This document shows, piece by piece, positions 43,912 through 64,000 of a DNA stretch of 64,000 nucleotides. Positions within the stretch are counted from its first letter, which is position 1, and every line of letters begins with the position of its first letter. The position numbers were made by a program, and so were the translations under genes. Below the pieces are notes generated by a model, which had not been told where the DNA came from, did not search any database, and was given only the letters and a program-made list of their open reading frames with translations. The DNA is from Fulvivirga sp. M361 (GTDB taxonomy: Bacteria; Bacteroidota; Bacteroidia; Cytophagales; Cyclobacteriaceae): the NCBI RefSeq assembly GCF_007097395.1, contig NZ_VKDC01000006.1, positions 272,073 to 336,072 of the forward strand. Reading direction: 5' to 3'.

Positions 43912-45630
43912 ATGAAATGCATTAAGATGGTTCTTGTCCTCTGTTTTTCATTACCATTCATGGTCATGGGACAGTCCTTGTTGATCAGGAATATTAACGT
44001 AATAGATGTAAACACAGGGGACTTAAAAGCTGATCAGGATGTCCTTGTAGTGGATAATAAGATAAGCAAGGTAGGAAAACGCTTAAAAGGGCCTGAAGGT
44101 GCCATCACGCTGGAGGGTGTCGGAAAATTTTTGATGCCCGGCTTGATAGATGGGCATATTCATTTTTTCCAAACAGGTAGCGTTTATACCAGGCCTGACG
44201 CTATTGATCTGAGACAAATGAGGTCATACGAAGAAGAGCGGGAACTAGCCTTTGAGAGTATACCTGACCAGTTCTTGCGCTACCTGCGTCTGGGCATTAC
44301 CACAGTGGTAGATGTAGGCGGGCCATTTCAAAACTTTCAGATCAGGGATGAAGTAACCCAACAGCACCTTTCTCCGAATGTCTTAGTCACCGGACCGCTT
44401 TTTTCTTCAGTAAGCAGAGAGAAATTAGCGCTGAATGATCCGCCGATCGCCAAAATACCCACTATTGAAACAGCAGATTCTCTATTTGATAAAATGCTGA
44501 CTTACGATCCTGATCTTATTAAGATCTGGTACATTGTGTCTAAGGAACTTCCTGCGGAAAAGACCTACCCGGTCATGGCTCATATTGCAAAAAGGGCCAG
44601 GGAAAACAATTTGCCGTTGGCGGTTCATGCTACTAACTTGAATACGGCTAAGCTGGCGGTAAAAATTGGGGCAGATGTATTGGTACATAGCGTAAGTGAC
44701 CAGGTAGTGGACCACGAATTTATCACTGCCTTAAAACAAAATGATGTCACTTACATCCCGACCTTACTGGTAGGTAAAAACTATGGCAGGACTTTTTTAT
44801 CCAGTCCGTCCAATCATCCGCAGGACCTGGCGTGGGCTGATCCCTTTCTTTACGGAACATTAACCGACCTGTTAAAATACAATGAAAAAGACCTGCCTCA
44901 AAGAGTTGTCAGGCTAAGAGATAATCCCGGGCAGATTTGGGAAAGTTATGCCAAAAGTGATTCCATTATGGATATTAACCTTTACAAGCTGGTTAAGGCA
45001 GGAGTAAATATAGCTACCGGTACTGATGCCGGAAATATCGGTACGATGCATGCCTCGTCCTATTTTCAGGAATTGGAATCTATGCAACGTGCAGGGTTAA
45101 GTACAGAAGAACTGGTGAAGGCCTCTACCATCCAGGCTGCCAAAGCGTACGGTCTGGATAAAGAACTGGGAACCATTGAAGCCGGTAAACTTGCTGACCT
45201 GATCGTTTTAGATAAAAATCCACTGGAATTAATGGATCATCTTAATACGATCGAGTATGTAGTCAAGAGTGGCAGGTTGATAAAAACGGATACATTGATA
45301 AAGGAATCACCTGCCGAGGTGGTTCAAAGACAGGTAAATGGCTACAATGCCCGGAATATCGATGCCTTTATGGCGACCTATTCCGATGACATTGAACTTT
45401 ATAGATTTCCGGATGAACGTTTTGTAAAAGGGGAGGAAGAAATGAGGAACAGATATGCCAAAATGTTTGAAATGACCCCTAATCTTTATTGCGAGATAAA
45501 AAACAGGATGGTGTTGGGAAATAGGGTCATTGATCAGGAATATGTGAGGAAAAATGATGCATTTGTCAATGCAATAGCCGTTTATGAGGTGAACGATGGT
45601 AAAATAACGAAGGTGACATTTATTAAATGA
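43912..45630 (+). CDS. amidohydrolase fused to an NTF2-like domain, exported
   Basis: Residues about 20-440 form an imidazolonepropionase-like amidohydrolase: signal peptide ending M-V-M-G-Q, N-V-I-D-V-N-T-G-D, P-G-L-I-D-G-H-I-H-F (HxH metal pair), H-A-T-N and H-S-V-S ligands, and G-T-D-A-G-N-I-G-T with the catalytic Asp, followed by L-G-T-I-E-A-G-K-L-A-D-L-I-V-L. From about residue 455 a second domain (Q-V-N-G-Y-N-A-R-N-I-D-A-F-M-A-T-Y-S-D-D-I-E) is a SnoaL/NTF2-like fold that ends the protein. Such fusions are known in Bacteroidota; the substrate could be a peptide-like or cyclic amide. The NTF2 part may help binding or oligomer assembly. A TAGTTTTG at 43855-43862 matches the TAnnTTTG -7 motif. 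Confidence 0.87.
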   Translation: MKCIKMVLVLCFSLPFMVMGQSLLIRNINVIDVNTGDLKADQDVLVVDNKISKVGKRLKGPEGAITLEGVGKFLMPGLIDGHIHFFQTGSVYTRPDAIDLRQMRSYEEERELAFESIPDQFLRYLRLGITTVVDVGGPFQNFQIRDEVTQQHLSPNVLVTGPLFSSVSREKLALNDPPIAKIPTIETADSLFDKMLTYDPDLIKIWYIVSKELPAEKTYPVMAHIAKRARENNLPLAVHATNLNTAKLAVKIGADVLVHSVSDQVVDHEFITALKQNDVTYIPTLLVGKNYGRTFLSSPSNHPQDLAWADPFLYGTLTDLLKYNEKDLPQRVVRLRDNPGQIWESYAKSDSIMDINLYKLVKAGVNIATGTDAGNIGTMHASSYFQELESMQRAGLSTEELVKASTIQAAKAYGLDKELGTIEAGKLADLIVLDKNPLELMDHLNTIEYVVKSGRLIKTDTLIKESPAEVVQRQVNGYNARNIDAFMATYSDDIELYRFPDERFVKGEEEMRNRYAKMFEMTPNLYCEIKNRMVLGNRVIDQEYVRKNDAFVNAIAVYEVNDGKITKVTFIK

Positions 45631-46305: not shown

Positions 46306-48942
46306 ATGTGCAGAAAAACGGATATACCGAAAATACCTCACGCATTATTCAAGTGGTACTGCAGGCCGGAAAGGTATGAGGAATTGCATGGTGACCTGGA
46401 GGAGTTCTTTTATGAAAGAGTAGATGAATACGGTGCCACCAAAGCCAGGTTATACTATTTGCTGGATGTAATCCGCTGTTGCCAGTCCTATGCCTGGAAA
46501 AAAACCGGACGTCAAACCAACTTAACGATTAGTATGTTCAGAAACTTTTACTTCACTGCCATTAGAAATCTCATTAAGAATAAGGGCTATTCATCTATTA
46601 ACATAGCTGGCCTGACCATCGGGATGACGAGCTTTATTTTTATTAGCCTGTTTATTGTCAACGAGTTAAGTTATGATCGATTTCATTCTGACTATAAAAA
46701 TATATATCGGGCGAGGTCAGAAGGGCAAATTCGGGCACAACGGGTAGATAATGCCACTACTCCTTCACCAATGGCCAAGACCTTACTCAATACTTATCCC
46801 GAGGTGGTGAAGGTTACCCGTGTCAGAAAAAGCGATCCTTTGCTGGTGGAGAAAGGAAGTAGTAAGATCAATGAGGAGGGTATACTGTATGCAGATTCCA
46901 CCTTTTTTGACGTATTTGACTTCAACTTGGTGGAAGGAGACCCGGCTACTGCTTTGGTTCATCCAAGGTCAATGCTATTGACAGAAACGTATGCCAAAAA
47001 ATATTTTGGAGAAGAAGAACCTATAGGTAAGCACTTAAGTATCGAAAAGGACACGATCCTATATACAATAACCGGTGTGTTAGAGGATGTCCCGGCAAAT
47101 TCACACATTCAATTTAACATGCTGTGCTCCATGAGTTCCAATGCCTCCTGGGACAATGACCGTTGGGTGGACGGACTTTTTTACACTTATGTGATACTCG
47201 CTGACAAGGTGAATGTAGAAGCCCTGGAGGAGAAAATGCAAGACCTCGTATACCAATATTTGGCGCCTGAGATAGAATATTACACAGAATTGACCATGGC
47301 GGAATGGGAAGGCTCGGGCAACCATGTTACGTATAGTCTTTTTCCTGTTAAGGACATTCACCTTTATTCGAAGAGTATCAGAGAAATTGGGGTGAATGGC
47401 AATATCTCCTACATATATATTTATTCTGTAATAGCCCTGATCATAGTATTCATTGCCATATTCAATTTTATCAACCTGGCCACTGCACAATCTACATCAA
47501 GAGCAAGAGAAGTAGGAGTGAGGAAAGTAATGGGTTCCACGAAAACAGGGTTGATATACCAATTCATATTCGAGTCTGTTATCGTTTCATCGATCTCCAC
47601 CATTCTTGCGGCAATACTAGTGACTGTGTTTATGCCATCTTTCATCCATTTGGTCGGTAAACCTCTGACCTTTGGACTTACCTCCAGTTATATCGGATTG
47701 CTGGCCCTATTTGGTTTGACCATTGTAGTGGGTGTACTGGCCGGTAGTTATCCTGCATTTGTTTTAGCCACTTCTAAGCCGGTAGATGCATTAAAGGGAG
47801 CATCACGTTCAGGTTCCAGGGTGGGGTGGCTACGCAATTTTCTGGTGATCATACAATTTGCCGCTTCCATTGTCATTATTATAGGGACCCTAGTGGTGTA
47901 CTATCAGATTGATTTTATGCTGACTAAAAACCTTGGGTTCGACAAAGAGCGTACCTTGGTGATCAGAAGACCTGATGCATTGGCAAATAATTTGGAAGCC
48001 TTTAAAAATGAGCTGCTCCTGGACCCTGCGATCAGTGCTGTGGTTAACTCTAAGACCATCCCGGGAAAAAACTACGCAATAAGGTCTTATCGCCGGAAGG
48101 ATCGTTCTGAAACACACATATTTAAAAACAATCAGGTGGGTTTTGGATATGAAGCGGTCATGGGGCTTGAATTAATTTCCGGCAGGTATTTCTCTCAGGA
48201 ATATAGTTCCGATTCCAATGCTGTTATCATCAATGAGTCAGCTGCAAGATCACTTGGTTTTGAGGACCCGATAGGTCAAAATTTAACCTCTTCGTTTAGA
48301 AGGGGAGAGCTATTGGAGATTATTGGAGTGGTAAAAGATTATAATATAGAATCACTACATAGGCCCATTGAACCTACATCCCTGGAATTGAGGCCAACTA
48401 CTACCAAAGGATATATCAGTGTGAAAATGACAAGTGATCTTAATGTGCGTGAGACAATACAATATATCGAGAAGGCCTGGCACACTCATTCGGATAAGCC
48501 CTTGCAATACTTTTTCTTTGATGAAGATTACGAGAACCTCTATAGATCTGAATCAGCTACAGGAAAGGTCTTCGTTGTATTTGCCGCACTTTCCATTTTT
48601 ATTGCCTGCCTGGGATTGATTGGGTTAATTGCCTATACCATTGCTGTTCGTAAAAAGGAAATAGGAATAAGAAAAGTGCTGGGGGCGAATACAGGCATTC
48701 TGATACGGTTATTGTCAAGTGAAATAGTCCGGCTGATCATTATTGCTACCCTGGTTTCATGGCCCCTGGCATATTTTGCAACCGATTACTGGCTTCAAAA
48801 TTTTGCAGATCGCCTGGACATTGACCTCTGGATCTATGCCGTACCTACGCTTATTGTACTATTGATAGGCTGTTTGGCGATCAGTTTCCAAACGATCCGG
48901 GCCTCCCTGAGCAATCCTATCCACGCATTGAAGGAGGAATAA
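46306..48942 (+). CDS. ABC transporter permease with N-terminal permease prefix domain (copy A)
   Basis: The 878-residue protein has an N-terminal prefix domain of about 75 residues (I-P-H-A-L-F-K-W-Y-C, Y-E-E-L-H-G-D-L-E-E-F, K-A-R-L-Y-Y-L-L-D-V-I-R-C-C), then a membrane helix, MacB-PCD periplasmic domain (L-T-E-T-Y-A-K-K-Y-F-G-E, G-V-L-E-D-V-P-A-N-S-H-I-Q-F), an FtsX block (R-A-R-E-V-G-V-R-K-V-M-G), a second periplasmic domain and a final FtsX block (R-K-K-E-I-G-I-R-K-V-L-G-A). Such proteins are half of a MacB-like mechanotransmission complex, needing an ATPase that is not beside it. The prefix domain is predicted to be cytoplasmic and may contact other proteins. It starts one base after the PadR stop. 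Confidence 0.9.
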   Translation: MCRKTDIPKIPHALFKWYCRPERYEELHGDLEEFFYERVDEYGATKARLYYLLDVIRCCQSYAWKKTGRQTNLTISMFRNFYFTAIRNLIKNKGYSSINIAGLTIGMTSFIFISLFIVNELSYDRFHSDYKNIYRARSEGQIRAQRVDNATTPSPMAKTLLNTYPEVVKVTRVRKSDPLLVEKGSSKINEEGILYADSTFFDVFDFNLVEGDPATALVHPRSMLLTETYAKKYFGEEEPIGKHLSIEKDTILYTITGVLEDVPANSHIQFNMLCSMSSNASWDNDRWVDGLFYTYVILADKVNVEALEEKMQDLVYQYLAPEIEYYTELTMAEWEGSGNHVTYSLFPVKDIHLYSKSIREIGVNGNISYIYIYSVIALIIVFIAIFNFINLATAQSTSRAREVGVRKVMGSTKTGLIYQFIFESVIVSSISTILAAILVTVFMPSFIHLVGKPLTFGLTSSYIGLLALFGLTIVVGVLAGSYPAFVLATSKPVDALKGASRSGSRVGWLRNFLVIIQFAASIVIIIGTLVVYYQIDFMLTKNLGFDKERTLVIRRPDALANNLEAFKNELLLDPAISAVVNSKTIPGKNYAIRSYRRKDRSETHIFKNNQVGFGYEAVMGLELISGRYFSQEYSSDSNAVIINESAARSLGFEDPIGQNLTSSFRRGELLEIIGVVKDYNIESLHRPIEPTSLELRPTTTKGYISVKMTSDLNVRETIQYIEKAWHTHSDKPLQYFFFDEDYENLYRSESATGKVFVVFAALSIFIACLGLIGLIAYTIAVRKKEIGIRKVLGANTGILIRLLSSEIVRLIIIATLVSWPLAYFATDYWLQNFADRLDIDLWIYAVPTLIVLLIGCLAISFQTIRASLSNPIHALKEE

Positions 48943-48950
48943 AACGATAA

Positions 48951-51551
48951 ATGAAAACAAATAACAACATACCGAAGATACCTCACGCTTTATTCAAGTG
49001 GTATTGCCAGCGGGAAAGGTACGAGGAACTGCATGGCGACCTGGAGGAATTCTACTATGAAAGAGTGGATGAATACGGGGTTACCAAAGCCCGTTTATAC
49101 TATCTACTGGATGTAATCCGCTGTTGCCAACCTTATGCCTGGAGAAAACCAAAGGGTCAGACTAACTCAACGATTATCATGTTCAGAAACTACTCAAAAA
49201 CGTCACTCAGAAGATTAATGAAAAATCCGATGAGTTCTTTTATCAATGTCTTTGGATTATCTGTTGCCATAGGTATTTGTATGCTCGTGTATGCTTTTAA
49301 CGGCTGGGTGAGTGGTGTGGATCAGTTTCATATAAACAAGGAGAAAGTCTACCTGGTCACCATTTTTGTAGACAGAGATGGCACACTACAGCAAAATGGG
49401 CAAACACCAAGGCCATTGGCGGAAATGTTGAAAGGAGATTTTGGACAGATACAAAAAACCTGCAGAGTAAAGGATGGGAACGTTGTAGTGAAATACGAAG
49501 ATAACGTCTTTCATGAGCGTGTTAGATACGTTGATCCTGAATTTCTGGAGATGCTCACCTTCCCGTTGAAGTGGGGATCGATTCGTTCTTTGCAGGATCC
49601 TAACAGTATTATTCTCAATGAAGAAATGTCGGTTAAGTACTTTGGGGCTGAGAACCCTGTCGGTAGCGATATTCTGATGATCTTTGATGAGAATAACAGT
49701 AAAGCTTTCAAAGTAGGGGGTGTGGCAAAAGCGTTCCCTGATTCACATGCTATTCATTTTGACTTTCTGGTCAACTTTGAAAATATAAAAGCGGCTGATC
49801 CTGCCTATGACACGCACGATTGGAGTGCCTTCATAGACGCGACACTGATCCAGGTGGATGATCCATGTCATATCCCTGCTATAGATAAGAGAATGGTACG
49901 GTACAAAAAAATGCAAAATGAAGCCCAGGAAGACTGGGCCATTTCATCTTTTGCCTTTGAACCACTGGCCACACTGTATGAAAATTCTGTTAACATAAAA
50001 AATAGCATTTCCAGTCCTTATTACTACAGCAATCACCAGGCGCGCATTATTCTGTCCATTCTGGCTTTGTTCATGCTGGCTCTGGCCTGTTTTAACTACA
50101 TTAACATAGCTATTGTCTCCGCAGCCAAAAGGTTGAAAGAAATAGGCTTAAGAAAGGTGATCGGCGCTAATCGCAGGATGGTCATTATACAGTTTTTAGC
50201 TGAGAATATGTTTGTGACCTTTTTTGCGTTGATCATAGGCATTGTTTTGGGCGTTACCGTTATTATCCCATGGTTTGAAGAGCTCAATAACTTCAGTACA
50301 GATTTTGAGCTTTTGGATGGGAAACTTTGGATATTCCTCACTTTAGTATTGTTTATAACAGGATTCTTATCTGGTATTTATCCGGCTTTTTACATTTCAA
50401 AATTTCAGGTGGCCACCATTTTTAAAGGCTCTGCGCAGTTTGGCAGGAAGAACAGGATGACTGAAGTGTTTTTAGGCTTTCAATTGATCTTGTCATGTAT
50501 TCTTATTGTATGTGCTGTGGTATTCACTCAAAATAATGACTACATGGCGAATCGCAGCTGGGGGTATGATCCGGGACATGCACTTTATGTAAACGTGCAC
50601 GACTATGCTGCCTTTGAACAATTAAAAACGGCTATAATACCGGACCCAAATATCGTATCTGTCTCAGGCTCGGAAAATCACCTGGGGCGAAGTCATGTAA
50701 CCACGGTTTTGCATTTTCCTGACCGGTACTACGAAGTAGATCAATTAGCGGTGGATGCTCATTATTTTGAAACGATGGAATTGGAACGGGTTGCCGGAAG
50801 ATTATTTTATGAAGATGCTGAAAATGACAAACGGACCGTGGTGGTAAATGAACTTTTAGTCAAAAATCTCGAGCTAAATAATGCTTTAGGGACACAGTTT
50901 GAGATAGATAGCATACAGCACGAAATTATTGGTGTCGTAAAAGACTTTCATTCTTACAGTTTTGCCGAGGCAGTGCAACCCACCATTTTCAGGGTGGCTG
51001 ACGAAAAGGAATTCCAATACCTGTCCATGCGGGTAACTCCCGGGACAGAAATGGAGACGTACAAAACCTTACAATCCCAATGGGCAACACTATTTCCCGA
51101 GATCCCTTTTCAGGGAGGATATCAGGAAGACGTATGGGGCAATTATTTTGAAGAGGTTGCCAGTCATGGACAATTTTGGAGGATAGTGGCGTTCATCGCG
51201 ATTTTATTGGCCGGTTTGGGCTTGTTTGGCCTGGTCTCGCTTAATGTAGCAGGAAGAGAACGAGAGTTCAGCATCCGAAAAGTATTGGGTGCCAGGCTAA
51301 TAAATATAGCCGTGAATATGATCAGGCAGTATATAGGGCTGTTTGCACTGGCCTTGCTGATAGGTGCTCCTCTCAGTTATTATTTGATCACTATGTTTTT
51401 TGATTTAGTGTATGAGTATCATATACCCATCAACTATACAGGAGTAGTCATTTCTGTGCTGATGCTCACTGGTGTTTTACTAATTGTGATTTCCTCACAG
51501 CTTGGGCAAATCTCCAGGTCTAACCCGGTAGACGGATTAAAAGCGGAATAA
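48951..51551 (+). CDS. ABC transporter permease with N-terminal permease prefix domain (copy B)
   Basis: The 866-residue protein begins eight bases after copy A. Its prefix domain is nearly the same as that of copy A: 63 of 74 residues are identical by eye, and the DNA is similarly close. Beyond about residue 75 the body is only distantly related (MacB-PCD with L-N-E-E-M-S-V-K-Y-F-G, FtsX blocks with L-K-E-I-G-L-R-K-V-I-G-A and E-F-S-I-R-K-V-L-G-A). So it is a MacB/FtsX-type permease of a different subfamily wearing the same adaptor. It is presumably co-expressed with the PadR gene and copy A. No ATPase gene lies in the operon. Confidence 0.9.
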   Translation: MKTNNNIPKIPHALFKWYCQRERYEELHGDLEEFYYERVDEYGVTKARLYYLLDVIRCCQPYAWRKPKGQTNSTIIMFRNYSKTSLRRLMKNPMSSFINVFGLSVAIGICMLVYAFNGWVSGVDQFHINKEKVYLVTIFVDRDGTLQQNGQTPRPLAEMLKGDFGQIQKTCRVKDGNVVVKYEDNVFHERVRYVDPEFLEMLTFPLKWGSIRSLQDPNSIILNEEMSVKYFGAENPVGSDILMIFDENNSKAFKVGGVAKAFPDSHAIHFDFLVNFENIKAADPAYDTHDWSAFIDATLIQVDDPCHIPAIDKRMVRYKKMQNEAQEDWAISSFAFEPLATLYENSVNIKNSISSPYYYSNHQARIILSILALFMLALACFNYINIAIVSAAKRLKEIGLRKVIGANRRMVIIQFLAENMFVTFFALIIGIVLGVTVIIPWFEELNNFSTDFELLDGKLWIFLTLVLFITGFLSGIYPAFYISKFQVATIFKGSAQFGRKNRMTEVFLGFQLILSCILIVCAVVFTQNNDYMANRSWGYDPGHALYVNVHDYAAFEQLKTAIIPDPNIVSVSGSENHLGRSHVTTVLHFPDRYYEVDQLAVDAHYFETMELERVAGRLFYEDAENDKRTVVVNELLVKNLELNNALGTQFEIDSIQHEIIGVVKDFHSYSFAEAVQPTIFRVADEKEFQYLSMRVTPGTEMETYKTLQSQWATLFPEIPFQGGYQEDVWGNYFEEVASHGQFWRIVAFIAILLAGLGLFGLVSLNVAGREREFSIRKVLGARLINIAVNMIRQYIGLFALALLIGAPLSYYLITMFFDLVYEYHIPINYTGVVISVLMLTGVLLIVISSQLGQISRSNPVDGLKAE

Positions 51552-51697: not shown

Positions 51698-52549
51698 ATG
51701 ATAGTCAATCACAAAACCATTGACCTGTTTGATAAACCTTTATTTACCTGGGTGAATATCCGTACTCCCATGGAGACAAGTGTTCCCTTACCTTCTGAGG
51801 CATGTTTTGCCTATATTATAGATGGAGATGATCAGGTGGTATCTTTTGAAGACGGAATTAGGGTAGAAGCAGGTCAGGCCATACTCTCATTATGTGGTCA
51901 AATGATGGGACATACGCTTTCAGAGCAGGAATATGGACAATTCACTTCCATAATCGTTCATTTTCATAAAGAGGTGCTGTTAAAGGTCTATGAGAATGGT
52001 CCGCCTCCTTTTTGGAAAGAGTTAGAAGAACCTGTTACGCAATACATTGTGCAAATGGCTGCATCGGAATTGGTAAAACAGTATTTTGCCGGAGTGGCTT
52101 GTTTCTTTCATAATAGAGAGGCCATATCCCAGGACATCCTCATCCTGAAGTTAAAGGAAATTATCCTTCTCCTTTTACAAACCAAAGATGCACCTGTGGT
52201 CACAAAGATCATGAGCAGCTTGTTTTCTCAACGTACCTTTGGTTTTAAGGAAATAGTGGAAGCGCATATCTGCGGTCCGGTAACCACTGAGAATTTGGCC
52301 TTGCTTACCAATAGAAGCATTTCCACTTTTAAGCGTGAGTTTAAAAAGATCTACAACACTACACCCGGAAATTATATCATCAACAAAAGGGTGGAAAAGG
52401 TAGCTAAATTACTTAAGGTGTCCGATGAAAGTATCAGTAGTGTGGGATACGAATGTGGATTTAGTAGTCCCGCACACCTTTCGCGTGTGTTCAAAACTAA
52501 ATATGGCATGACACCGAGTGAGTATCGTTTGAACCTTTCAGATAAGTGA
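51698..52549 (+). CDS. AraC-family transcriptional regulator
   Basis: The 283-residue protein has an N-terminal cupin-like ligand domain (A-C-F-A-Y-I-I-D-G-D-D-Q and V-E-A-G-Q-A-I-L) and two C-terminal helix-turn-helix motifs: L-A-L-L-T-N-R-S-I-S-T-F-K-R-E-F-K and I-S-S-V-G-Y-E-C-G-F-S-S-P-A-H-L-S-R-V-F-K, ending with the typical G-M-T-P-S-E-Y-R. The ligand is unknown. It may control the genes that follow on the same strand (a small ferredoxin-like protein and an MDR oxidoreductase). Confidence 0.92.
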   Translation: MIVNHKTIDLFDKPLFTWVNIRTPMETSVPLPSEACFAYIIDGDDQVVSFEDGIRVEAGQAILSLCGQMMGHTLSEQEYGQFTSIIVHFHKEVLLKVYENGPPPFWKELEEPVTQYIVQMAASELVKQYFAGVACFFHNREAISQDILILKLKEIILLLLQTKDAPVVTKIMSSLFSQRTFGFKEIVEAHICGPVTTENLALLTNRSISTFKREFKKIYNTTPGNYIINKRVEKVAKLLKVSDESISSVGYECGFSSPAHLSRVFKTKYGMTPSEYRLNLSDK

Positions 52550-54326: not shown

Positions 54327-57300
54327 ATGAATAAGACTGCTTATTATTGTATTACTCTTTTATTATTGACTTTTTATTCTTTTGGGCAGGTATCAGACTT
54401 ACACGTCAAAAGATACACCAAGAAGGAGGGATTGTCCAGTAACAATATTACTTCTTTTGCGCAAACTCAGGACGGAAAATTATGGATCGGTACCACCGAC
54501 GGCTTAAATCGATTCGATGGTTATGAGTTCAAGGTGTTTCGCAATAATCCCGGAGACTCAACAAGCATTAGTGACAATAATATTACGGCTCTTTTTGTAG
54601 ACCACCTTGGTAGTTTATGGGTAGGTACTGAAAATACAGGACTCATTAGATACCATCCTGAAAGCGAAAGTTTTGAAAGATTTGCTCATGCTCCTTATCA
54701 AAGTAATACGATCAGTCACCCTTACATAACTTGTATTAAGGAGGATTTCAACCAACAACTTTGGGTTGGGACTATTATGGGGCTGAACTTATACCGTAGA
54801 GCCGAAAATGATTTTAAAAGATATTTTTTTGAAACAAGCCTGCTGCTGGATGATAAGTCAATGGCGCGGTTAAAGAAGGTTGACATCCCCAATGGAATAT
54901 TATCCCGGCTTTCCTTTATGAAAGACTCTATATTTTCTAATCAGGTATTATTTAATTCTGCCTTGCAACAGCTATTTGATGAAAGAGAATTGACGGTTTT
55001 TAAGGATGATATCTACCGCAGTTGCCACGTTCAACGAAATGCTTCACATATTAGAGTAATAGAACCCGATACAAAGGGAAACCTTTGGGTAGGTTATGAT
55101 GATGCCGGATTAAGCTATTTTAACCCACACACCAATCATTTGATCAAGTTTGATAATGAGCTGGAATCCGCTAAAATGGAAAAACAACGAATAGGAGCGC
55201 TGCTGGCCGATACCGACGTTCTTTGGATTGGCTTTCTGAACGGTTTTTTGTATAAGCTGGATATAGCATCAGGTAAGTTAGAAAAGATAGCATTGCCCGG
55301 TGATCCGGGCAGTATCGAAACCTTACTGAAAGATAAACAGCGTTCAATTTGGATAGGGGATAACTCAGGGTTGTATCGCAAAAAAAAGGAGGATATATTT
55401 TTTACATCCTACTTAATTGATCCGTTGAACGAGTGGGGCGTTTCAACTCATTCGGTGAAAACGATTTTTCAGGATAACCAGGATAACATTTGGTTAGGCA
55501 TCGTTCAGGGAGGAATTAACCAGATTTTGAGCGATATACCGTTCAGTACCTATAGTAATAGCCGGTCCAGTGATTTTCGGCTGACTAAAAATTCTGTTTC
55601 AAGTGTATTAGAAGACTCAAAAGGACGTCTATGGATTGGATACTATACGGCAGGAATAGATCTCTGGGATAAAACGGACAGTACGATCAGACACTTTGAA
55701 TATAGTAAAAGCGATCCGTTTTCATTGGGGAAAGGCACTGTTTTCTCCATATTCGAGGATAGTGAGGGGCGTATTTGGGTAGGAACGTATGAAGGAGGGT
55801 TACAGGAATACATTCCTTCCTTAAACCGTTTTGAATCTCACCTTTATGATCCGGCAAAGGACAATACTATTTCAGGCAATGATGTACGTTGCATCAAAGA
55901 AGATCGTGACGGCAACCTGTGGCTGGCAATTCATGGGGGTGGTGTGAATAAATTTCAGAAGTCCACAGGCACCGTTACCCGGTATTATGCTGATTACCTT
56001 AATTGGGAAAATGCATTAAGCGACAATTGGGTCTATACCCTTGAAATTGGTCGTGAAGGGAATGTTTGGATCGGCAGTGTGGCTGGCCTTACAGTATTTG
56101 CACCTGAGAAGAATCAATTTCTGACATATAATACTCAAAACAGCGATTTAAGTCATGATAAGGTGAGAGTGCTGCATGAAGATACTAATGGCATAATCTG
56201 GATTGGCACTGAAAGCGGTTTAAATAGATTCAATAAAGCAGATGGTTTATTTAGTATGGTCACATCAGAAGATGGGTTGATTGATAATACCGTTACTGGA
56301 ATTGTATCGGACTGTAATGATCACTTATGGGTATCTACCAAAAACGGTTTGTCAAAAATAGACGTTGTGACTGAGGATGTACACTCATTCACAGAGTCCG
56401 ATGCATTTGAATCAAATGAATTTTTTGCAGGTGCTCATACCGTTGGAAAGGACGGGGCCTTGTATTTCGGAGGGTTTCAGGGTTTGCTTACACTACATCC
56501 GGATGCGTTAGAGCTTAAGGACCCGGAAATCCTGTTAAGTCTTACAGGGGTCAGCATAAACCATAAAAACAACCATCAATTACTGCAATCAACCGATCCT
56601 TATGGTTGCTGTAGTACTACATTGCACTATAACCAGAATCATATCAGGTTCAATTATGTAGGGATCAACTTTCAACACTCAAGGCACATACAATACGCTT
56701 ATCAACTGGAAGGGTTTGACAGAAGCTGGAATTATGTAGACAATAGCAAGGAAGCCACCTATTCCAATTTACCCCCCGGAAAATACAGGTTTATGCTCAA
56801 AGCATCGGTGGGAAACAATCAGTGGATAGAACCTCAAATGCTCATGAGATTTGAAATTGATCCGCCATTCTGGAAAACATGGTGGGCTAAGTTGTTTTAT
56901 ATTGTGCTGATAATAGTTTGGATAGCTATTTATAAATGGTACGTAATCAGGAAAGAACGCAGGAAAAGTGACCTAAAATTTGCACTTTTTCAAAAAGACC
57001 TTAAAGAACAGCTTGATTCGCTCAAAATCAAATTTTATGCTGATATTTCAAAAGAACTACAATCTCCATTTAACCTTATCAGACGACCGTTACAAAAGCT
57101 TATCTCTGAAAATGATTCCATTTCTCCGGAAACCCGTATGACGTACTTTAAATTAATTAGTCAAAATGCGAGAAAGGTGATCACGCTGATAGAACAACTA
57201 TCTGATATATCAAGGTTTGATACTGTTTCAACACAGTTGAGCGTTTCTAATTATGATATTGTTCATTACTGTCAACAATTGTCGGACGTATTCAGAAGTA

Positions 57301-58205
57301 AAGCGGACAAACGTCATTTGGGGCTTGTATTTGAGAGTAATAAAGAAGCAGCTGAAGTATTTTTTGACGTTGCAAAACTTGAAAAGATAATGCATTCTTT
57401 GATTTCTTACGCTGTTCAACGAGCCCATCCAAATAGTCAGGTTAAAATTGGTCTTGAACTACATACGGTGGAATCACCAGAGTTACCCAGTGGTTTGAAA
57501 AGAGTTAAAAAGGCCTTGGAGTTTGCTAAAATTACAGTAGGTCATGCCTGCCTGCCCATGACGGATCAAAAAGAAGGAGTGGATGATTTTAGGGAGGAAG
57601 AACAAATCGTAGAAACAAACTATGCTATGGCGTTGGTCAAACAATTAACCGCAGTACATCTTGGCACATTCAACTTGTCTATGGACGAAGAAAAAACAAA
57701 TTATACGGTTTGGCTTCCGGTGGATAAAGATGTATTTAAGACCGGGGAATTCATACCGGTTCCTGATGTAGACGTAAGAATGCTGGAACTCAAATCTTAT
57801 CTGAGTTCAGAACTTCTGGAAGATCGCTTTGCGGAGGTCCACTCATTTTCTGAAAATACTGCCAATCCCCGTTATGACGATTCTCCCTTCATGGTCCAGC
57901 TGTATGAAATCGTGGATGCGCAATTGGCCGATGATCAATTCGGACCGGAACATTTGGCTGATTATATGAACCTGAGCAGGTCGCAATTGTATAAAAAGGT
58001 GAAGTCATTTACCAAACTTTCCGTAAGTATACTTATCAGAAACAGGAGGTTATCAAAGTCATTGGAACTACTGAGCTACATGGAGCATAACATCTCGGAA
58101 ATAGCCTACGCCGTTGGCTTCAGAGACCCCGGGTATTTCACAAAATGCTTCAAGGAGATGTATGGTAAATCTCCTTCCGAATTTGTACAGGCAGACGGAA
58201 CTTAA
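54327..58205 (+). CDS. HTCS-like regulator with pseudokinase and no receiver domain
   Basis: The start at 54327 gives a signal peptide (C-I-T-L-L-L-L-T-F-Y-S-F-G-Q). The 1292 residues show about 14 regulator-propeller repeats (L-W-I-G-T-T-D-G-L-N-R-F and variants) to about residue 755, a Y_Y_Y domain (about 775-850, Y-Q-L-E-G-F-D-R-S-W-N-Y-V), one membrane helix (about 853-875), a histidine-kinase-fold region, and a C-terminal AraC helix-turn-helix pair. The kinase region is degenerate: F-Y-A-D-I-S-K909-E-L replaces I-S-H-E-F/L; the N-box Asn is Tyr1028; the G1 box D-x-G-x-G is H1073-A-C-L-P; G2 lacks glycines. Only about 55 residues separate it from the AraC domain, so there is no receiver domain. 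The gene is continuous, so this is not a recent frameshift. It lies directly before GH9 and GH5 cellulase genes and is likely their regulator. Confidence 0.9.
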   Translation: MNKTAYYCITLLLLTFYSFGQVSDLHVKRYTKKEGLSSNNITSFAQTQDGKLWIGTTDGLNRFDGYEFKVFRNNPGDSTSISDNNITALFVDHLGSLWVGTENTGLIRYHPESESFERFAHAPYQSNTISHPYITCIKEDFNQQLWVGTIMGLNLYRRAENDFKRYFFETSLLLDDKSMARLKKVDIPNGILSRLSFMKDSIFSNQVLFNSALQQLFDERELTVFKDDIYRSCHVQRNASHIRVIEPDTKGNLWVGYDDAGLSYFNPHTNHLIKFDNELESAKMEKQRIGALLADTDVLWIGFLNGFLYKLDIASGKLEKIALPGDPGSIETLLKDKQRSIWIGDNSGLYRKKKEDIFFTSYLIDPLNEWGVSTHSVKTIFQDNQDNIWLGIVQGGINQILSDIPFSTYSNSRSSDFRLTKNSVSSVLEDSKGRLWIGYYTAGIDLWDKTDSTIRHFEYSKSDPFSLGKGTVFSIFEDSEGRIWVGTYEGGLQEYIPSLNRFESHLYDPAKDNTISGNDVRCIKEDRDGNLWLAIHGGGVNKFQKSTGTVTRYYADYLNWENALSDNWVYTLEIGREGNVWIGSVAGLTVFAPEKNQFLTYNTQNSDLSHDKVRVLHEDTNGIIWIGTESGLNRFNKADGLFSMVTSEDGLIDNTVTGIVSDCNDHLWVSTKNGLSKIDVVTEDVHSFTESDAFESNEFFAGAHTVGKDGALYFGGFQGLLTLHPDALELKDPEILLSLTGVSINHKNNHQLLQSTDPYGCCSTTLHYNQNHIRFNYVGINFQHSRHIQYAYQLEGFDRSWNYVDNSKEATYSNLPPGKYRFMLKASVGNNQWIEPQMLMRFEIDPPFWKTWWAKLFYIVLIIVWIAIYKWYVIRKERRKSDLKFALFQKDLKEQLDSLKIKFYADISKELQSPFNLIRRPLQKLISENDSISPETRMTYFKLISQNARKVITLIEQLSDISRFDTVSTQLSVSNYDIVHYCQQLSDVFRSKADKRHLGLVFESNKEAAEVFFDVAKLEKIMHSLISYAVQRAHPNSQVKIGLELHTVESPELPSGLKRVKKALEFAKITVGHACLPMTDQKEGVDDFREEEQIVETNYAMALVKQLTAVHLGTFNLSMDEEKTNYTVWLPVDKDVFKTGEFIPVPDVDVRMLELKSYLSSELLEDRFAEVHSFSENTANPRYDDSPFMVQLYEIVDAQLADDQFGPEHLADYMNLSRSQLYKKVKSFTKLSVSILIRNRRLSKSLELLSYMEHNISEIAYAVGFRDPGYFTKCFKEMYGKSPSEFVQADGT

Positions 58206-58373
58206 GGCACTCGTTTTAGTAAACCATTCCTTTATTTGATATCTCAAAAAATGCCTTTAATGATTATTCAGAGAGGTTAAGAGACAATATTCCAATCATG
58301 AGACAATAATCCAAGTGGCATTTTAGTCCCAGTATTCGATACTTTAATCAACATCATTCCATAGAGAGAGCGA

Positions 58374-58408: not shown

Positions 58409-61400
58409 ATGAAAAACACCAACTGTTGGATGGTATTTACCATTCTTCCACTCCTGATGCTGGTTATAAATTTCAGCTCTGCACAGGAGTACAACTATGG
58501 AGAAGTATTACAGAAATCACTCTTCTTTTATGAGGCCCAACAATCCGGGAAGTTACCGGCCTGGAACCGCGTATCATGGCGCGGAGATGCAAATGTAAAT
58601 GATGGACAAATTGAAGGAATTGATGTGTCCGGCGGATGGCATGACGCGGGAGATCATATTAAATTCGGATTGCCTATGGCGTTTTCCGTGACAGCGCTCA
58701 ATTGGGGCTTCCTGGAATATCAACAGGCTTATGTTCAATCTAACCAGGATGAGATATTCAAGAATAATATCCGCTGGGTCACTGATTATTTCATCAAATG
58801 TCATATCGGGCCTACAGAATTTGTGGCACAGGTTTCAGATAAATCTACAGATCATTCACTTTGGGCAGCGGCAGAACTCACTGAGTTATATACCGCGCGA
58901 AAATCATACAGCGTGACTGCTGCCAATCCTGGCACAGATGTAGTCTGTGAAACAGCCGCCGCCCTGGCATCTGCCAGTATTATTTTTAAAGACAGTGACC
59001 CTGCCTATAGTGCAGAACTCATTGATCATGCCGTTTCGCTGTACAATTTTGGAGATCAGTATCGCGGATTTTATACCGGAGCGGTGCCGGCGGATTGCTG
59101 TTATCCTTCCGGAAACTACTTTGATGAACTGGTATGGGGTGCGCTGTGGCTTTATAAGGCTACCGGTGATATCCAGTACCTGCAAAAGGCCGAAGCCGAA
59201 TATGACAATATGATCAACAACCCGGCAGGCAGGCCTGTGGATTACCTCTGGAGCCTGGTATGGGAGGATAAGTCGTATGGCAGCTTTGTGTTATTGTCGA
59301 TGCTTACTGATAATCAAAAGTATAAGGATGATGCAGAAAGACATCTCAACTTCTGGACAGATGAGATCACCTATTCCCCGGGAGGGCAGGCATGGCTATT
59401 TCAGTGGGGATCTTTAAGGCATTCAGCCAATGCAGCCCTTACAGCCTTCATTTATGCGGATAATGTGGCCACTCCCAACAAGGCCAAATACATTAATTTT
59501 GGCGAACGTCAGATAAACTATATCCTGGGTGACAACCCTGATAACAGAAGTTATGTGATCGGTTTTGGTAATAACCCGCCCAAAAACCCTCACCATCGTA
59601 GTGCACATGGCTCCTGGGAGGGTACCGATCGCGGTCTGCCCATACCGGCGGCGCATACATTATACGGTGCATTGGTAGGAGGGCCCGGAGCTGCAGATGA
59701 TCAGCACACGGATGTTACTACCGATTTCCAGGAGAACGAGGTGGCCGTAGATTATAATGCTTGTTTCCAAGGCGCTATTGCCCGGATGCAGCAAGTGTAT
59801 GGCGGTACACCACTGGCAAATTTCCCTGTAGATGAAGTGCCCGGCCGTGATGAGATATTTTCAAGTACCAAATTGAACAGCCTGAATGCTACAAGTGCTA
59901 CCATCTCCATGGATGTGAGCAACTATTCAGCCTGGCCCGCACGGACACTTACAGGTCCTTCGGTAAGGTATTACATGGATATCTCCGAGTCAGTAGCAGC
60001 CGGATATTCCATCAATGACTATGACATTTCTTTATCGTTTGGTGAAGGCGGAGCCACATTTGCGGGGCCTATAGTGGTGGATGCGGCCGCTAATACTTAT
60101 TATGTGGAGGTTACCTGGGCGAGCGATGTTATAATAGCGCCTGCCGGTTATAATAACAATGCAAAAGAAGCGCAAATACAGATCAGGGTAAATACGGGTG
60201 TACCTTTTGACCTTGGCAATGATTGGTCAGGCAGCGATTTGACCAGTACCGCACAAGTCATTGCTAACATACCTATTTATGAAGGCGGGGTATTAGTCGG
60301 TGGGCAGGAACCTGGCCCGGCAGGACCTTCTTATACAATCACTGCGTCAGCACAAACCGGGGGAACCATCTCGCCAAATGGTGTAGTTACCGTTGCTGAA
60401 GGTGGTAGCCGTACTTTTATAATTACCGCCAATAATGGATTCGAGATAGATAATGTAACCGTTAATGGGGATACCGTTGGAGCTGTTGCAAGCTATACAT
60501 TTACCAATGTTCAATCCAATGGTACCATTGTGGCAAGTTTTGCCGAAGTGATCGTTCCTACCTATACCATTACTGCCACTGCAGGAATCGGAGGGTCGAT
60601 AAGTCCGGTGGGAAGCGTAATAGTGTCAGAAGGTAACGACCAGGTATTTACGATTAGTCCTGACCCTGGATTTGTTATTGACGATGTCCTGGTAAATGAC
60701 ATTTCTGTGGGGAATGTAGCTACGTATACTTTTGCAAATGTTATCTCCGACCAGACCATTTCAGCATCTTTTATAGCAGGCAATCAGCGTCCGGTAGCAC
60801 GTGCGTCAGCTACTCCTGTTTCCGGTGCAGCGCCATTAACCGTGGACTTTGATGGTAGTGGTTCTACCGATCCGGAAGGAGATGTACTCACCTACAGTTG
60901 GGATTTTGGTGATGGCGCTGTGGCCAGTGGTGTAACGGTTACTCATATTTATGCCTTGGCAGGAAGCTATACGGTTATACTTACGGTCACAGATGTTTCA
61001 GGGGGAGTTGGTAGTGATACCATAGCCATATCCGTTACCGGTGATGGTGGTCCGTGTGCCTTTGATACCCCACGACCTACGCCGTTGCCTACCGGACATA
61101 CCTCTTTTGACCATATTTTTGTAATAGGTACAGGAGGGCCGGACCTATCCAATGTATCGAATTTCACCATTAACTGGGACCTGGAAAATAACGGTCTTTG
61201 GCAGTTTTCCATGAATACCAATAATGGTATTCCCAGCTGGTGGAATGATTTAAGGGCCAACATGACTTACCAGTTTTCTTCTCCACAACCGGACCTTAGT
61301 TTTGTAAATACAGGCTTCCAGGGAATGGACGGTGATTATTATGTAACCTGGGACAACGGTAATTTCGTAATGGTCTCAAAAACGGTGGATTTTACGATCT

Positions 61401-61726
61401 ATTGCTCTACATCTGCAACACCTCCTGATTGTTCCGTATCCAATGCAAGAAAGCTTGCCGATGGCAGCTCTGTCGTTAGCGGAATCCAGGGCCTTTCGGT
61501 TTATCCCAACCCATTCAATGAGTCCATCCAAATTGCCTTACCGGACAGACACGTTGAGTCGATCACTGTGTTCGATGCGATGGGAAAAGAGATGTTACGA
61601 CTAAACCATGAAGAAATTTCTGACAGGCAGGTAATTGAACTAAGTCCAAAGTTCAAAAAGGGGCTGTACATGCTACACATCGAAGGAGCAGATTGGCTGG
61701 AAGTATTAAAAGTACTAAAGAACTAA
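58409..61726 (+). CDS. GH9 endoglucanase with CBM3-like, InlB-type repeat and PKD domains, T9SS cargo
   Basis: The 1105-residue protein has a signal peptide (V-I-N-F-S-S-A-Q), a GH9 catalytic domain (about 28-465) with the nucleophile-water Asp pair in G-G-W-H-D79-A-G-D82-H, N-P-H-H-R-S-A-H-G, and the acid Glu444 in Q-E-N-E-V-A. Next is a CBM3c-like module (about 485-630, N-Y-S-A-W-P-A-R-T-L, Y-Y-M-D-I-S-E), typical of processive GH9 endocellulases. Two InlB-type repeats (G-G-T-I-S-P-N-G and G-G-S-I-S-P-V-G) follow, then a PKD domain (about 790-880, D-P-E-G-D-V-L-T-Y-S-W-D-F-G-D-G), a roughly 115-residue unassigned domain, and a T9SS type A end (V-Y-P-N-P-F-N-E-S). It should cut cellulose outside the cell. 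It lies 204 bases after the regulator gene. Confidence 0.93.
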   Translation: MKNTNCWMVFTILPLLMLVINFSSAQEYNYGEVLQKSLFFYEAQQSGKLPAWNRVSWRGDANVNDGQIEGIDVSGGWHDAGDHIKFGLPMAFSVTALNWGFLEYQQAYVQSNQDEIFKNNIRWVTDYFIKCHIGPTEFVAQVSDKSTDHSLWAAAELTELYTARKSYSVTAANPGTDVVCETAAALASASIIFKDSDPAYSAELIDHAVSLYNFGDQYRGFYTGAVPADCCYPSGNYFDELVWGALWLYKATGDIQYLQKAEAEYDNMINNPAGRPVDYLWSLVWEDKSYGSFVLLSMLTDNQKYKDDAERHLNFWTDEITYSPGGQAWLFQWGSLRHSANAALTAFIYADNVATPNKAKYINFGERQINYILGDNPDNRSYVIGFGNNPPKNPHHRSAHGSWEGTDRGLPIPAAHTLYGALVGGPGAADDQHTDVTTDFQENEVAVDYNACFQGAIARMQQVYGGTPLANFPVDEVPGRDEIFSSTKLNSLNATSATISMDVSNYSAWPARTLTGPSVRYYMDISESVAAGYSINDYDISLSFGEGGATFAGPIVVDAAANTYYVEVTWASDVIIAPAGYNNNAKEAQIQIRVNTGVPFDLGNDWSGSDLTSTAQVIANIPIYEGGVLVGGQEPGPAGPSYTITASAQTGGTISPNGVVTVAEGGSRTFIITANNGFEIDNVTVNGDTVGAVASYTFTNVQSNGTIVASFAEVIVPTYTITATAGIGGSISPVGSVIVSEGNDQVFTISPDPGFVIDDVLVNDISVGNVATYTFANVISDQTISASFIAGNQRPVARASATPVSGAAPLTVDFDGSGSTDPEGDVLTYSWDFGDGAVASGVTVTHIYALAGSYTVILTVTDVSGGVGSDTIAISVTGDGGPCAFDTPRPTPLPTGHTSFDHIFVIGTGGPDLSNVSNFTINWDLENNGLWQFSMNTNNGIPSWWNDLRANMTYQFSSPQPDLSFVNTGFQGMDGDYYVTWDNGNFVMVSKTVDFTIYCSTSATPPDCSVSNARKLADGSSVVSGIQGLSVYPNPFNESIQIALPDRHVESITVFDAMGKEMLRLNHEEISDRQVIELSPKFKKGLYMLHIEGADWLEVLKVLKN

Positions 61727-61778: not shown

Positions 61779-64000
61779 ATGAAAATATTAAAAACCAACC
61801 GTCTATTGTTTTGGGTAATGTGTCTGATGTTTTTAACCATGCATCAGGTCAGCGGCCAGCAATGCACAGGCAATTATCTGACTGCTTCAGGAAATAAACT
61901 ATATGATGCGCAGGGAAAAGTAGTAAGATTAACCGGTATCAACTGGTTCGGGTTTGAAACATCCAACAGGGCTCCTCATGGATTATGGAGCCGTGACTGT
62001 AAGAGTATGTTGATGCAAATCAAAGACCTGGGATTCAACTCCATAAGAATTCCGTGGAGTAATGCTATCCTGGAACCGGGAGCCACCATGTCCGGGATCA
62101 GTACCGCTCCTGTCCCTGATCCGTATACGGGAAGAATACTTAATGAGGTAGAAGGAAGTCTGACAGACCCATTGGACCTGCTGGACCTGATGGTAGATTA
62201 CTGCCAGGAGCTGAACCTGAAGATCATCCTGGATAACCATTCCAGGCAGCCGGATGGATACCTTTCCGAAGAGCTATGGTATACAGACATTACGCCTCAT
62301 GAAAAATGGATTGAAGATTGGGTATTTCTGGCAGATAGATATAAGAACAAGGACGCTGTAATCGCCATGGACATTAATAACGAACCTCATGGCAAGAACG
62401 GAAACGGCTCAAGGTGGGGGAGTGGTGATATAACCTCAGACTGGAGGCTTGCAGCAGAAGCCTGTGGAGACGCTATACTGGCAGTAAACCCCAATGTACT
62501 CATTATGGTGGAAGGTGTGGAAGAATTTGAAAATGAAACCTATTGGTGGGGAGGTAACCTGAAAGGCGCCGCCAGTTACCCGGTAAGGCTTTCAGACCCT
62601 TCCAAACTGGTGTACTCACCGCATGAATATGGTCCCACGGTATTCCAGCAGACCTGGTTTAGTGATCCCACTTTTCCAGGTAATATGCCAGCCATCTGGG
62701 AAGCCAACTTTAACTACCTGCATACACAAAACATTTCTCCCTTGTTTGCCGGTGAATTCGGCATTAAAACACAGGGTGGGGTAGATGAGGTTTGGTTTGA
62801 TACCTATTTGGCATTTATGGGTGAAAAAGGATATTCGTGGAGCTTTTGGTGCTGGAACCCTAATTCAGGGGATACAGGAGGCATCCTGACGGATGACTGG
62901 AGCTCGATCCATGATTGGAAAATGAATAAGTTGATCCCCCATCTGGATGCAGAGATCCCGAACGGTATCGGGACCGGATGTGGTACAACTTTTGAAATTA
63001 CGGCCACAGCGGGTTCCGGGGGCAGTATTTCCCCTGTCGGATCAGTGGTTGTTCCTGAAAACAGTGACCGCTCCTTTGTCATTACGGCCTCTTCCGGATA
63101 CGCGATCGATGATGTGCAGGTGGATGGCGTGTCTGTAGGAAATGTTGGTAATTACACTTTTAGTAATGTTACGGTTAACCATACGATTAGCGCGAGTTTT
63201 GTGCTTGACAATACTTCTTCCGAATATCCCGCCGGATCACCGGTTGCCATTAACGGAAAACTCAGTGTCTCAGGTAATCAGATGGTCAACGAGTGTGGAA
63301 ATACAGTTCAATTACGAGGAATGAGCACGCATGGACCCCAGTGGTTTGAAAACTGCTATACCACCGGTTCATTAGATGCACTTGTCAACGATTGGGGCAT
63401 TGATATATTCAGGATTGCCATGTATGTGGAAGAAGGTGGGTACGTGAATAACCCGGATTACTGGAAGAACTGGATTGACAATATGGTAGACGAATGTGCC
63501 AGCAGAGGAATCTATTGTATGATTGACTGGCATGTATTAAACCCGGGAGATCCGAATGCCAATATTGTAGCTGCCAGGGATTTTTGGTCTTATATGTCAG
63601 CCAAACACACAGGTAAAAAACATGTTATCTATGAAATAGCCAACGAACCTAACGGCGTTACCTGGCCGCAGGTAAAGACCTATGCTGAAGACATTATTCC
63701 AAGGATCAGGGCAAACGACCCGAGCACAATAGTAATTGTAGGAACACCTACCTGGAGCCAGGATGTGGATGTGGCGGCAGCCGATCCTTTGAATTACAGT
63801 AACCTGATGTACGCCCTGCACTTCTACTCCGGTACACACACAGACTGGCTGCGGGCTAAGGGAAATACTGCGCTGAATGCCGGACTCGCACTATTTGTCA
63901 CCGAGTTTGGTACTAGCCAGGCTACGGGTGATGGAGGACCTTACCTAGCTGAAACTCAGAATTGGATGGATTGGATGAGTGATAATAAGGTCAGTTGGAT
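61779..64000 (+). CDS. double GH5 cellulase, partial at window end
   Basis: The frame stays open to the last base, giving at least 740 residues without a C-terminus. After a signal peptide (M-H-Q-V-S-G-Q) comes a first GH5 domain (about 30-385): T-G-I-N-W-F-G-F-E-T, acid/base Glu202 in D-I-N-N-E-P-H-G, nucleophile Glu326 in F-A-G-E-F-G. A single InlB-type repeat (about 400-475) very like the second one of the GH9 protein joins it to a second GH5 domain from about 485: V-Q-L-R-G-M-S-T-H-G-P-Q-W-F, acid/base Glu623 in E-I-A-N-E-P-N-G and nucleophile Glu709 in V-T-E-F-G-T. The second is like GH5 subfamily 2 endoglucanases; the first is a different GH5 branch. It probably cuts cellulose or related beta-1,4-glucans outside the cell in concert with the GH9. 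More domains and a T9SS signal may follow beyond the window. Confidence 0.9.
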   Translation, partial: MKILKTNRLLFWVMCLMFLTMHQVSGQQCTGNYLTASGNKLYDAQGKVVRLTGINWFGFETSNRAPHGLWSRDCKSMLMQIKDLGFNSIRIPWSNAILEPGATMSGISTAPVPDPYTGRILNEVEGSLTDPLDLLDLMVDYCQELNLKIILDNHSRQPDGYLSEELWYTDITPHEKWIEDWVFLADRYKNKDAVIAMDINNEPHGKNGNGSRWGSGDITSDWRLAAEACGDAILAVNPNVLIMVEGVEEFENETYWWGGNLKGAASYPVRLSDPSKLVYSPHEYGPTVFQQTWFSDPTFPGNMPAIWEANFNYLHTQNISPLFAGEFGIKTQGGVDEVWFDTYLAFMGEKGYSWSFWCWNPNSGDTGGILTDDWSSIHDWKMNKLIPHLDAEIPNGIGTGCGTTFEITATAGSGGSISPVGSVVVPENSDRSFVITASSGYAIDDVQVDGVSVGNVGNYTFSNVTVNHTISASFVLDNTSSEYPAGSPVAINGKLSVSGNQMVNECGNTVQLRGMSTHGPQWFENCYTTGSLDALVNDWGIDIFRIAMYVEEGGYVNNPDYWKNWIDNMVDECASRGIYCMIDWHVLNPGDPNANIVAARDFWSYMSAKHTGKKHVIYEIANEPNGVTWPQVKTYAEDIIPRIRANDPSTIVIVGTPTWSQDVDVAAADPLNYSNLMYALHFYSGTHTDWLRAKGNTALNAGLALFVTEFGTSQATGDGGPYLAETQNWMDWMSDNKVSW

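Follow-up and report, generated by a model that had tools for sequence, protein, structure and literature searches.

The gene at positions 54327-58205 of the window (the whole stretch of 64,000 nucleotides analysed here, from contig NZ_VKDC01000006.1 of Fulvivirga sp. M361) encodes a protein derived from the hybrid two-component systems (HTCS), the major glycan switches of Bacteroidota. The protein has lost the residues and domains of the phosphorelay and stands beside two cellulase genes. Taken as a whole mechanism, it is probable, with confidence that is fair rather than high, that it acts as a transmembrane one-component regulator of these cellulases. The periplasmic propeller and Y_Y_Y sensor would detect a soluble product of cellulose breakdown; ligand binding would alter the geometry of a membrane-bound dimer; and this change would travel through the membrane helix and the helices of the dead kinase directly to the tethered AraC-type domains. 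These domains would occupy GACAATANT direct repeats, recognised by their conservation, upstream of the GH9 and GH5 genes and switch the genes on, and judging by the sequence no phosphate would move within the protein. The conversion may have occurred once, in an ancestor shared by four species, or separately in two sister lineages; each lineage kept a different dead module. The identity of the ligand is a guess from the neighbouring genes, and the ligand presumably gates DNA binding. The evolutionary claim, that one cellulase regulator shed its phosphorelay and kept its target and DNA site while sister lineages dropped opposite halves of the relay, is one on which our judgement is evenly balanced.

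The regulator and its parts are as follows.

54327-58205, + strand: HTCS-derived regulator, phospho-dead, 1292 residues (open reading frame, Pfam, alignment)
54399-56666, + strand: periplasmic sensor of Reg_prop propellers, residues 25-780
56667-56855, + strand: Y_Y_Y domain, residues 781-843 (Pfam)
56874-56951, + strand: membrane helix, residues 850-875 (hydropathy)
57006-57221, + strand: dead dimerisation/His domain, residues 894-965, with Lys909 (57051-57053) in place of His
57222-57752, + strand: dead ATP-binding domain, residues 966-1142, with N, G1 and G2 boxes lost
57753-57881, + strand: linker at the former place of the receiver, residues 1143-1185 (alignment gap, no Response_reg match)
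57882-58202, + strand: AraC-type DNA-binding domain, residues 1186-1292 (Pfam, alignment)

The reading frame is intact, with no internal stop in 1292 residues. Pfam profiles detect ten Reg_prop stretches and place HTH_18 at residues 1210-1288 (E 1.7e-18), while HisKA stays below threshold (17.5 bits against a cut-off of 26.9). HATPase_c and Response_reg give no match in a scan at E<=10, in which program filters remove most hits weaker than about 0.1. Compared by sequence with solved structures, the sensor matches the HTCS sensor structures 4a2l and 3v9f, and residues 894-1133 match HK853 of T. maritima (phmmer, E about 3e-9 to 4e-9). A kinase match with no receiver match indicates that the kinase-derived region persists and the receiver is gone. 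About 50-55 residues separate the kinase from the DNA-binding domain, varying with the placement of the domain ends; judged by eye only, the linker may contain a remnant of the last receiver helix. An earlier note, made from the sequence alone, had described a single intact frame with propellers, Y_Y_Y domain, membrane helix and DNA-binding domain, a missing receiver, a short linker and two downstream cellulase genes, and all of these features are borne out.

The same note had listed Lys909 for the H-box His, Tyr1028 for the N-box Asn, His1073 for the G1 Asp and the loss of the G2 glycines, and alignment to intact orthologues reproduces each change. Further substitutions are N1024S, K1031Q, G1075C, G1077P, G1096E, G1098N and G1100A. 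Nine intact orthologues share 53 invariant positions in the kinase region. Of these, the window protein retains none of the ten catalytic ones, against 25 of the other 43 (Fisher p 0.0008); the ten were assigned by what we take to be the definitions of the H, N, G1 and G2 boxes. On this sequence evidence, phosphotransfer within the window protein is impossible, as acceptor His, ATP boxes and receiver are all absent. Such loss is not a habit of the source genome, because the His, the second N-box Asn and the receiver Asp are present in every one of 14 aligned HTCS paralogues (L059-L072, the set fetched from among the kinase-like genes of the genome). In one paralogue, L071 (G000 C87:19400-24400), Asn replaces the G1 Asp and Thr replaces one G1 Gly (INSGST), with His and receiver Asp retained; it is possibly a partly impaired kinase.

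Orthologues were sought with the whole protein in 15 genomes of the genus, 390 of the order, 390 of the family and 150 of another family, in overlapping sets; in the order and family searches the best two candidates per genome were scored. The orthologue group comprises 13 members including the window protein (100/100 in the tree). Six further matches, with E of 1e-106 to 1e-117, do not belong to it, and a match on a short contig was left unused. Nine of the 13 are intact HTCS of 1406-1467 residues (genomes G009, G020, G001, G353, G419, G401, G019, G578 and G485). The remaining three, from G004, G006 and G007, have 1163-1171 residues and no kinase: after the sensor and membrane helix come a stub (about 50-60 residues), a domain resembling a receiver and the AraC domain. 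In their receivers the phospho-Asp is replaced by Lys or Arg and the conserved Lys by Tyr or Thr, and the Pfam scores are 35.8, 32.9 and 27.0 bits against a cut-off of 30.2. Opposite halves of the relay have thus been lost: the receiver in the window protein, which keeps a dead kinase, and the kinase in its three relatives, which keep a dead receiver. Homologues that share the H-box Lys, for which the earlier note had proposed a search, were not found.

The maximum-likelihood tree was built from the sensor region only (21 rows), so that the lost domains cannot drive its topology. It unites the window protein with G004, G006 and G007 in one clade (100/100), sister to the intact proteins of G009, G020 and G001 (100/99). 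Acceptor His and receiver Asp are present in all of the other 14 rows, among them G528, from another genus, which has Asn at the G1 Asp position, the same replacement as in paralogue L071. A tree of the DNA-binding domain recovers the clade of four again (97/96). From these sequences, phosphotransfer would have been lost either once, in the ancestor of the four species, or twice, in sister lineages, through deletion of opposite modules. The eight genus genomes that hold the orthologue have one each at E<=1e-110, which indicates no close intact twin alongside.

Similar proteins were also sought more widely. For the junction of kinase and DNA-binding domain (residues 940-1292, E<=1e-22), a search that is weak, since it scored the best five candidates in each of 390 genomes of the order, found no receiver-less HTCS besides that of the window. 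A search for kinase-less forms in 395 genomes of the phylum matched 124 among the matches listed (best five candidates per genome). The best 20 loci, by a motif check only, look like ordinary HTCS, 17 with an acceptor-His motif and three with an N-box, and were rejected as kinase-less candidates. Loci such as L143 and L152 encode proteins of about 690-720 residues whose AraC-type domain is 43-49% identical to that of the window protein; in these two, which were scanned, the AraC-type domain is N-terminal and is followed by TPR repeats, with neither kinase nor receiver.

The proposed targets and the candidate DNA site lie immediately downstream of the regulator.

58281-58312, + strand: proposed operator, direct repeats GAGACAATATTCC / GAGACAATAATCC, 19 bp apart
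58313-58355, + strand: two further degenerate units, possible, aligning with units 3-4 of the relatives
58409-61726, + strand: GH9 cellulase with CBM3, PKD and secretion tail; proposed target
61779-63998, + strand: GH5 cellulase, running past the window (1106 residues in the contig); proposed target

The two cellulase genes, 52 bp apart, probably form one transcript. A cellulase gene is found near 11 of the 13 orthologues: GH9 and GH5 in the window, GH9 in G009, G020 and G001, GH5 and GH48 in G006, G007 and G004, GH9 and GH48 in G019 and G485, GH48 in G578, and in G401, at a contig end, GH9 one gene away. In G485 (L091:15953-19183) the GH48 gene is split into two open reading frames by a frameshift or sequencing error.

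Direct repeats of the form GACAATA(G/A/T)T precede the cellulase genes, in the window at 58283-58310, 106 and 125 bases before the GH9 start. Four units, at spacings of 19, 19 and 21 bases, are present in G006, G007 and G004. In the phospho-dead genomes the tandem repeat GACAATANT(N10)GACAATANT stands upstream of the adjacent cellulase. The exact pattern GACAATANTN{9,11}GACAATANT has four matches in the 15 genus genomes, one per phospho-dead genome and none in the other 11; the pairs start 121-126 bases before the adjacent cellulase, and a reversed-pattern control gives two matches. The variant TACAATAGTN{9,12}GACAATANT has three matches, in G001, G009 and G020, at the same place, with none for the control. 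In the window, none of 100 shuffles reaches the repeat pair, while a single unit, with two mismatches allowed, is no commoner than expected by chance. The number of units is reached by 2.3% of intergenic shuffles for the window, about 1% for G009, G001 and G020, and 0 of 2000 for G006, G007 and G004. From these comparisons it is well supported that the regulator has been kept, and that its DNA site and target predate the loss of phosphotransfer. A looser pattern, used to look for a wider regulon in the protein's own genome, has three matches (one for the reversed control), and was set aside, the two outside the locus lying inside other open reading frames.

Constraint also differs along the protein. 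Identity to the three intact sister proteins is 42-45% over residues 25-850 and 56-59% over the DNA-binding domain. With the topology fixed, the share of tree length taken by the window protein is 0.125 for the DNA-binding domain, 0.175 for the sensor, 0.257 for the His domain and 0.268 for the ATP domain. Omega, from Nei-Gojobori counts in the G006/G007 pair (dS 0.8-2.5, near saturation), is 0.024 for linker plus DNA-binding domain, 0.052 for the dead receiver, 0.075 for the sensor and 0.33 for the membrane stub; the receiver of intact pairs gives 0.039 (G001/G020) and 0.10 (G001/G009). On these measures the output domain is the most constrained part, and the dead kinase is relaxed yet recognisable. 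The helix stretches SRSQLYKKVK and DPGYFTKCFKEMY, which we take to be the recognition helices, are identical in the window protein and intact G001 and G020, and the first is shared with G004, G006 and G007.

The fold of the dead kinase was predicted with AlphaFold2 (AF2) on residues 846-1292, with five HTCS and one plain kinase as the six other rows of the alignment. Confidence is modest (mean pLDDT 64.5, pTM 0.39), and the model is biased toward a kinase fold, the other rows being intact kinases. The top Foldseek match is HK853 (1.7e-11), and RetS, the RetS-GacS complex and DivL are within the 50 best. Structural alignment gives Z 17.6 with the ATP-binding domain of ThkA (134 aligned, rmsd 3.8) and Z 17.4 with the DNA-binding domain of YesN (103 aligned, rmsd 1.4).

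Several observations, besides the modest confidence and bias of that model, weigh against a ligand-gated cellulase regulator of this kind. The orthologues of G353 and G419 lie in a mannan-type locus (L057, L088) and not beside cellulases, so a cellulose fragment is not necessarily the ligand; GH26 is present in both, and GH130, GH1 and a symporter in G353, as far as the partly scanned neighbours go. From this gene content the orthologue group seems to have switched substrate there. Both repeat patterns were written from the very upstream regions that they describe, and the informative part is their absence elsewhere in the genomes. The more distant orthologues of G019, G485 and G578 have single GACAATANT units upstream of a neighbouring gene, a number that 19-39% of shuffles reach, and a genome search at two mismatches finds no wider regulon (108 matches against 119 for the control). 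The second helix stretch of G004, G006 and G007 differs from that of the window protein at three positions. The omega values come from the G006/G007 pair, the window protein having no close relative in the set, and in the more distant G006/G004 pair, where other regions are saturated, the dead receiver reaches 0.28, so that its constraint may be weaker over longer times. The tree-length share of the dead kinase is about 1.5 times that of the sensor, which fits the loss of most of its role. Finally, the receiver is reported to inhibit the DNA-binding domain in Bacteroides HTCS (Gao 2024, PMC11253607), and the window protein has no receiver.

Two side observations concern these loci. In G578 (L090:4143-4842) a GGGACAATAGTACA element precedes a gene for a PKD/cytochrome c protein, as a single unit not above chance. 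The G353 and G419 loci (L057, L088) hold a second AraC-family regulator of 294 residues.

Removal of the receiver takes away the usual brake, and this makes constitutive activity the main rival: a membrane-tethered activator, always bound to DNA, with the sensor a relic or mere anchor. The cellulase level would then be set by the expression of the regulator itself or by other factors. Both the always-bound activator and this form of control are doubtful, though far from negligible. Tethering to a dimer is argued to be able to activate (PMC11253607), and the three relatives have Phe for the His of the inhibitory S/CHIP loop. That loop is already off consensus in the intact sisters (RNLP, RHLP, SHLP), which, going by the alignment, may have made the change easier. 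Drift would be expected of a relic sensor, however, and the sensor retains 42-45% identity to the intact sisters, a low omega in G006/G007 (0.075) and a frame free of damage.

Pairing with a partner is an improbable explanation. The dead kinase would associate with an intact kinase or HTCS, as RetS does with GacS, and the partner would supply the signal or control. The recognisable kinase fold, the presence of RetS, the RetS-GacS complex and DivL among the Foldseek matches, and at least 14 HTCS paralogues in the genome speak for it. The three sister species, however, keep the same repeat with no kinase region to pair; no second orthologue appears at E<=1e-110 in the eight genus genomes holding one; and the DNA-binding domains of the paralogue matches are at most 40% identical.

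Least credible of all is a decaying gene that has yet to acquire a stop: the change of ten of ten catalytic positions, the missing receiver and the faster evolution of the kinase part would suit it, but the frame is intact in all four phospho-dead proteins, the DNA-binding domain is conserved (identity 0.56-0.59, against 0.51 for intact G353 to the same three proteins), the helix stretches and upstream repeat are kept, and the dead state is common to four species across long branches. Loss of the receiver as an assembly artefact is likewise unlikely, as the absent segment leaves the frame intact and all ten catalytic positions of the kinase are lost as well.

The direct, phosphate-free regulator is thus the reading retained, with one amendment to the earlier note. 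Its account of a one-component design with no phosphotransfer, kept function and a link to cellulases holds; the kinase-like dimer fold as a general requirement does not, because the nearest phospho-dead relatives have no kinase. The note had also named intact homologues as a sign of decay. Intact orthologues do exist, yet the gene does not look decaying by tree, conservation of the DNA-binding domain or repeat. Support for the interpretation comes from the orthologue tree, the relatives lacking the other half of the relay, the low omega (in one pair) and the conserved upstream repeat.

Several known systems resemble the window protein in part. It shares with the HTCS of Bacteroidota the Reg_prop/Y_Y_Y sensor, membrane helix, AraC-type output, glycan-degradation neighbours and, by the tree, descent from a common ancestor with intact HTCS; unlike them, it lacks a HisKA domain with acceptor His, the HATPase_c boxes and a receiver with phospho-Asp. 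DivL and RetS are pseudo-histidine kinases that act on partner proteins, whereas the dead domain of the window protein shares a chain with its DNA-binding domain. ToxR and CadC are among the transmembrane transcription regulators. Such regulators, for example Rsp of Neisseria (PMC10269533), likewise unite a sensor, a membrane helix and a DNA-binding domain in a single chain with no phosphorelay, but the window protein has a large propeller sensor, an AraC-type output and an inherited dead kinase in between. Pseudo-histidine kinases and pseudo-receivers as described in PMC12632262 keep their fold without catalytic residues, as the window protein does by sequence and by its modest-confidence model. 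The closest precedent is BT4236, an HTCS of B. thetaiotaomicron with Gln848 for the acceptor His, for which the authors suggest a phosphorylation-independent mechanism (Gao 2024, PMC11253607). According to the same paper BT4236 retains the receiver contact motif, whereas the window protein has lost receiver and ATP boxes.

HTCS, membrane-bound one-component regulators, pseudo-kinases and pseudo-receivers are therefore known already; what appears to be new is an HTCS lineage shedding its relay in two opposite ways. Because a phosphorylation-independent HTCS was proposed earlier (BT4236, PMC11253607), this is a variant rather than a class of its own. In the open-licence literature searched (titles and beginnings of abstracts, which leaves absence from print unproven), no description was found of an HTCS without kinase or receiver, or of an HTCS lineage losing its relay by opposite routes with the DNA site kept.

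If the proposed mechanism is correct, the membrane sensor of an HTCS can drive its DNA-binding domain directly, the phosphorelay is a removable layer, and HTCS can give rise to one-component membrane regulators by losing parts rather than through fusion. At stake are what keeps a sensor that shares a chain with its DNA-binding domain from being permanently on, and to what extent the signal depends on phosphate. The orthologues would offer matched natural proteins on similar operators (intact, with dead kinase and no receiver, and with dead receiver and no kinase), a route from two-component systems to one-component membrane regulators, and a candidate operator for cellulose genes.

Other genes of the window include a separate AraC-family regulator with an ExsA_N domain (51698-52549), two genes upstream of the HTCS-derived regulator. 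Tandem MacB/FtsX-type permease genes of 878 and 866 residues occupy 46306-51551, and an amidohydrolase fused to a SnoaL-like domain is encoded at 43912-45630.

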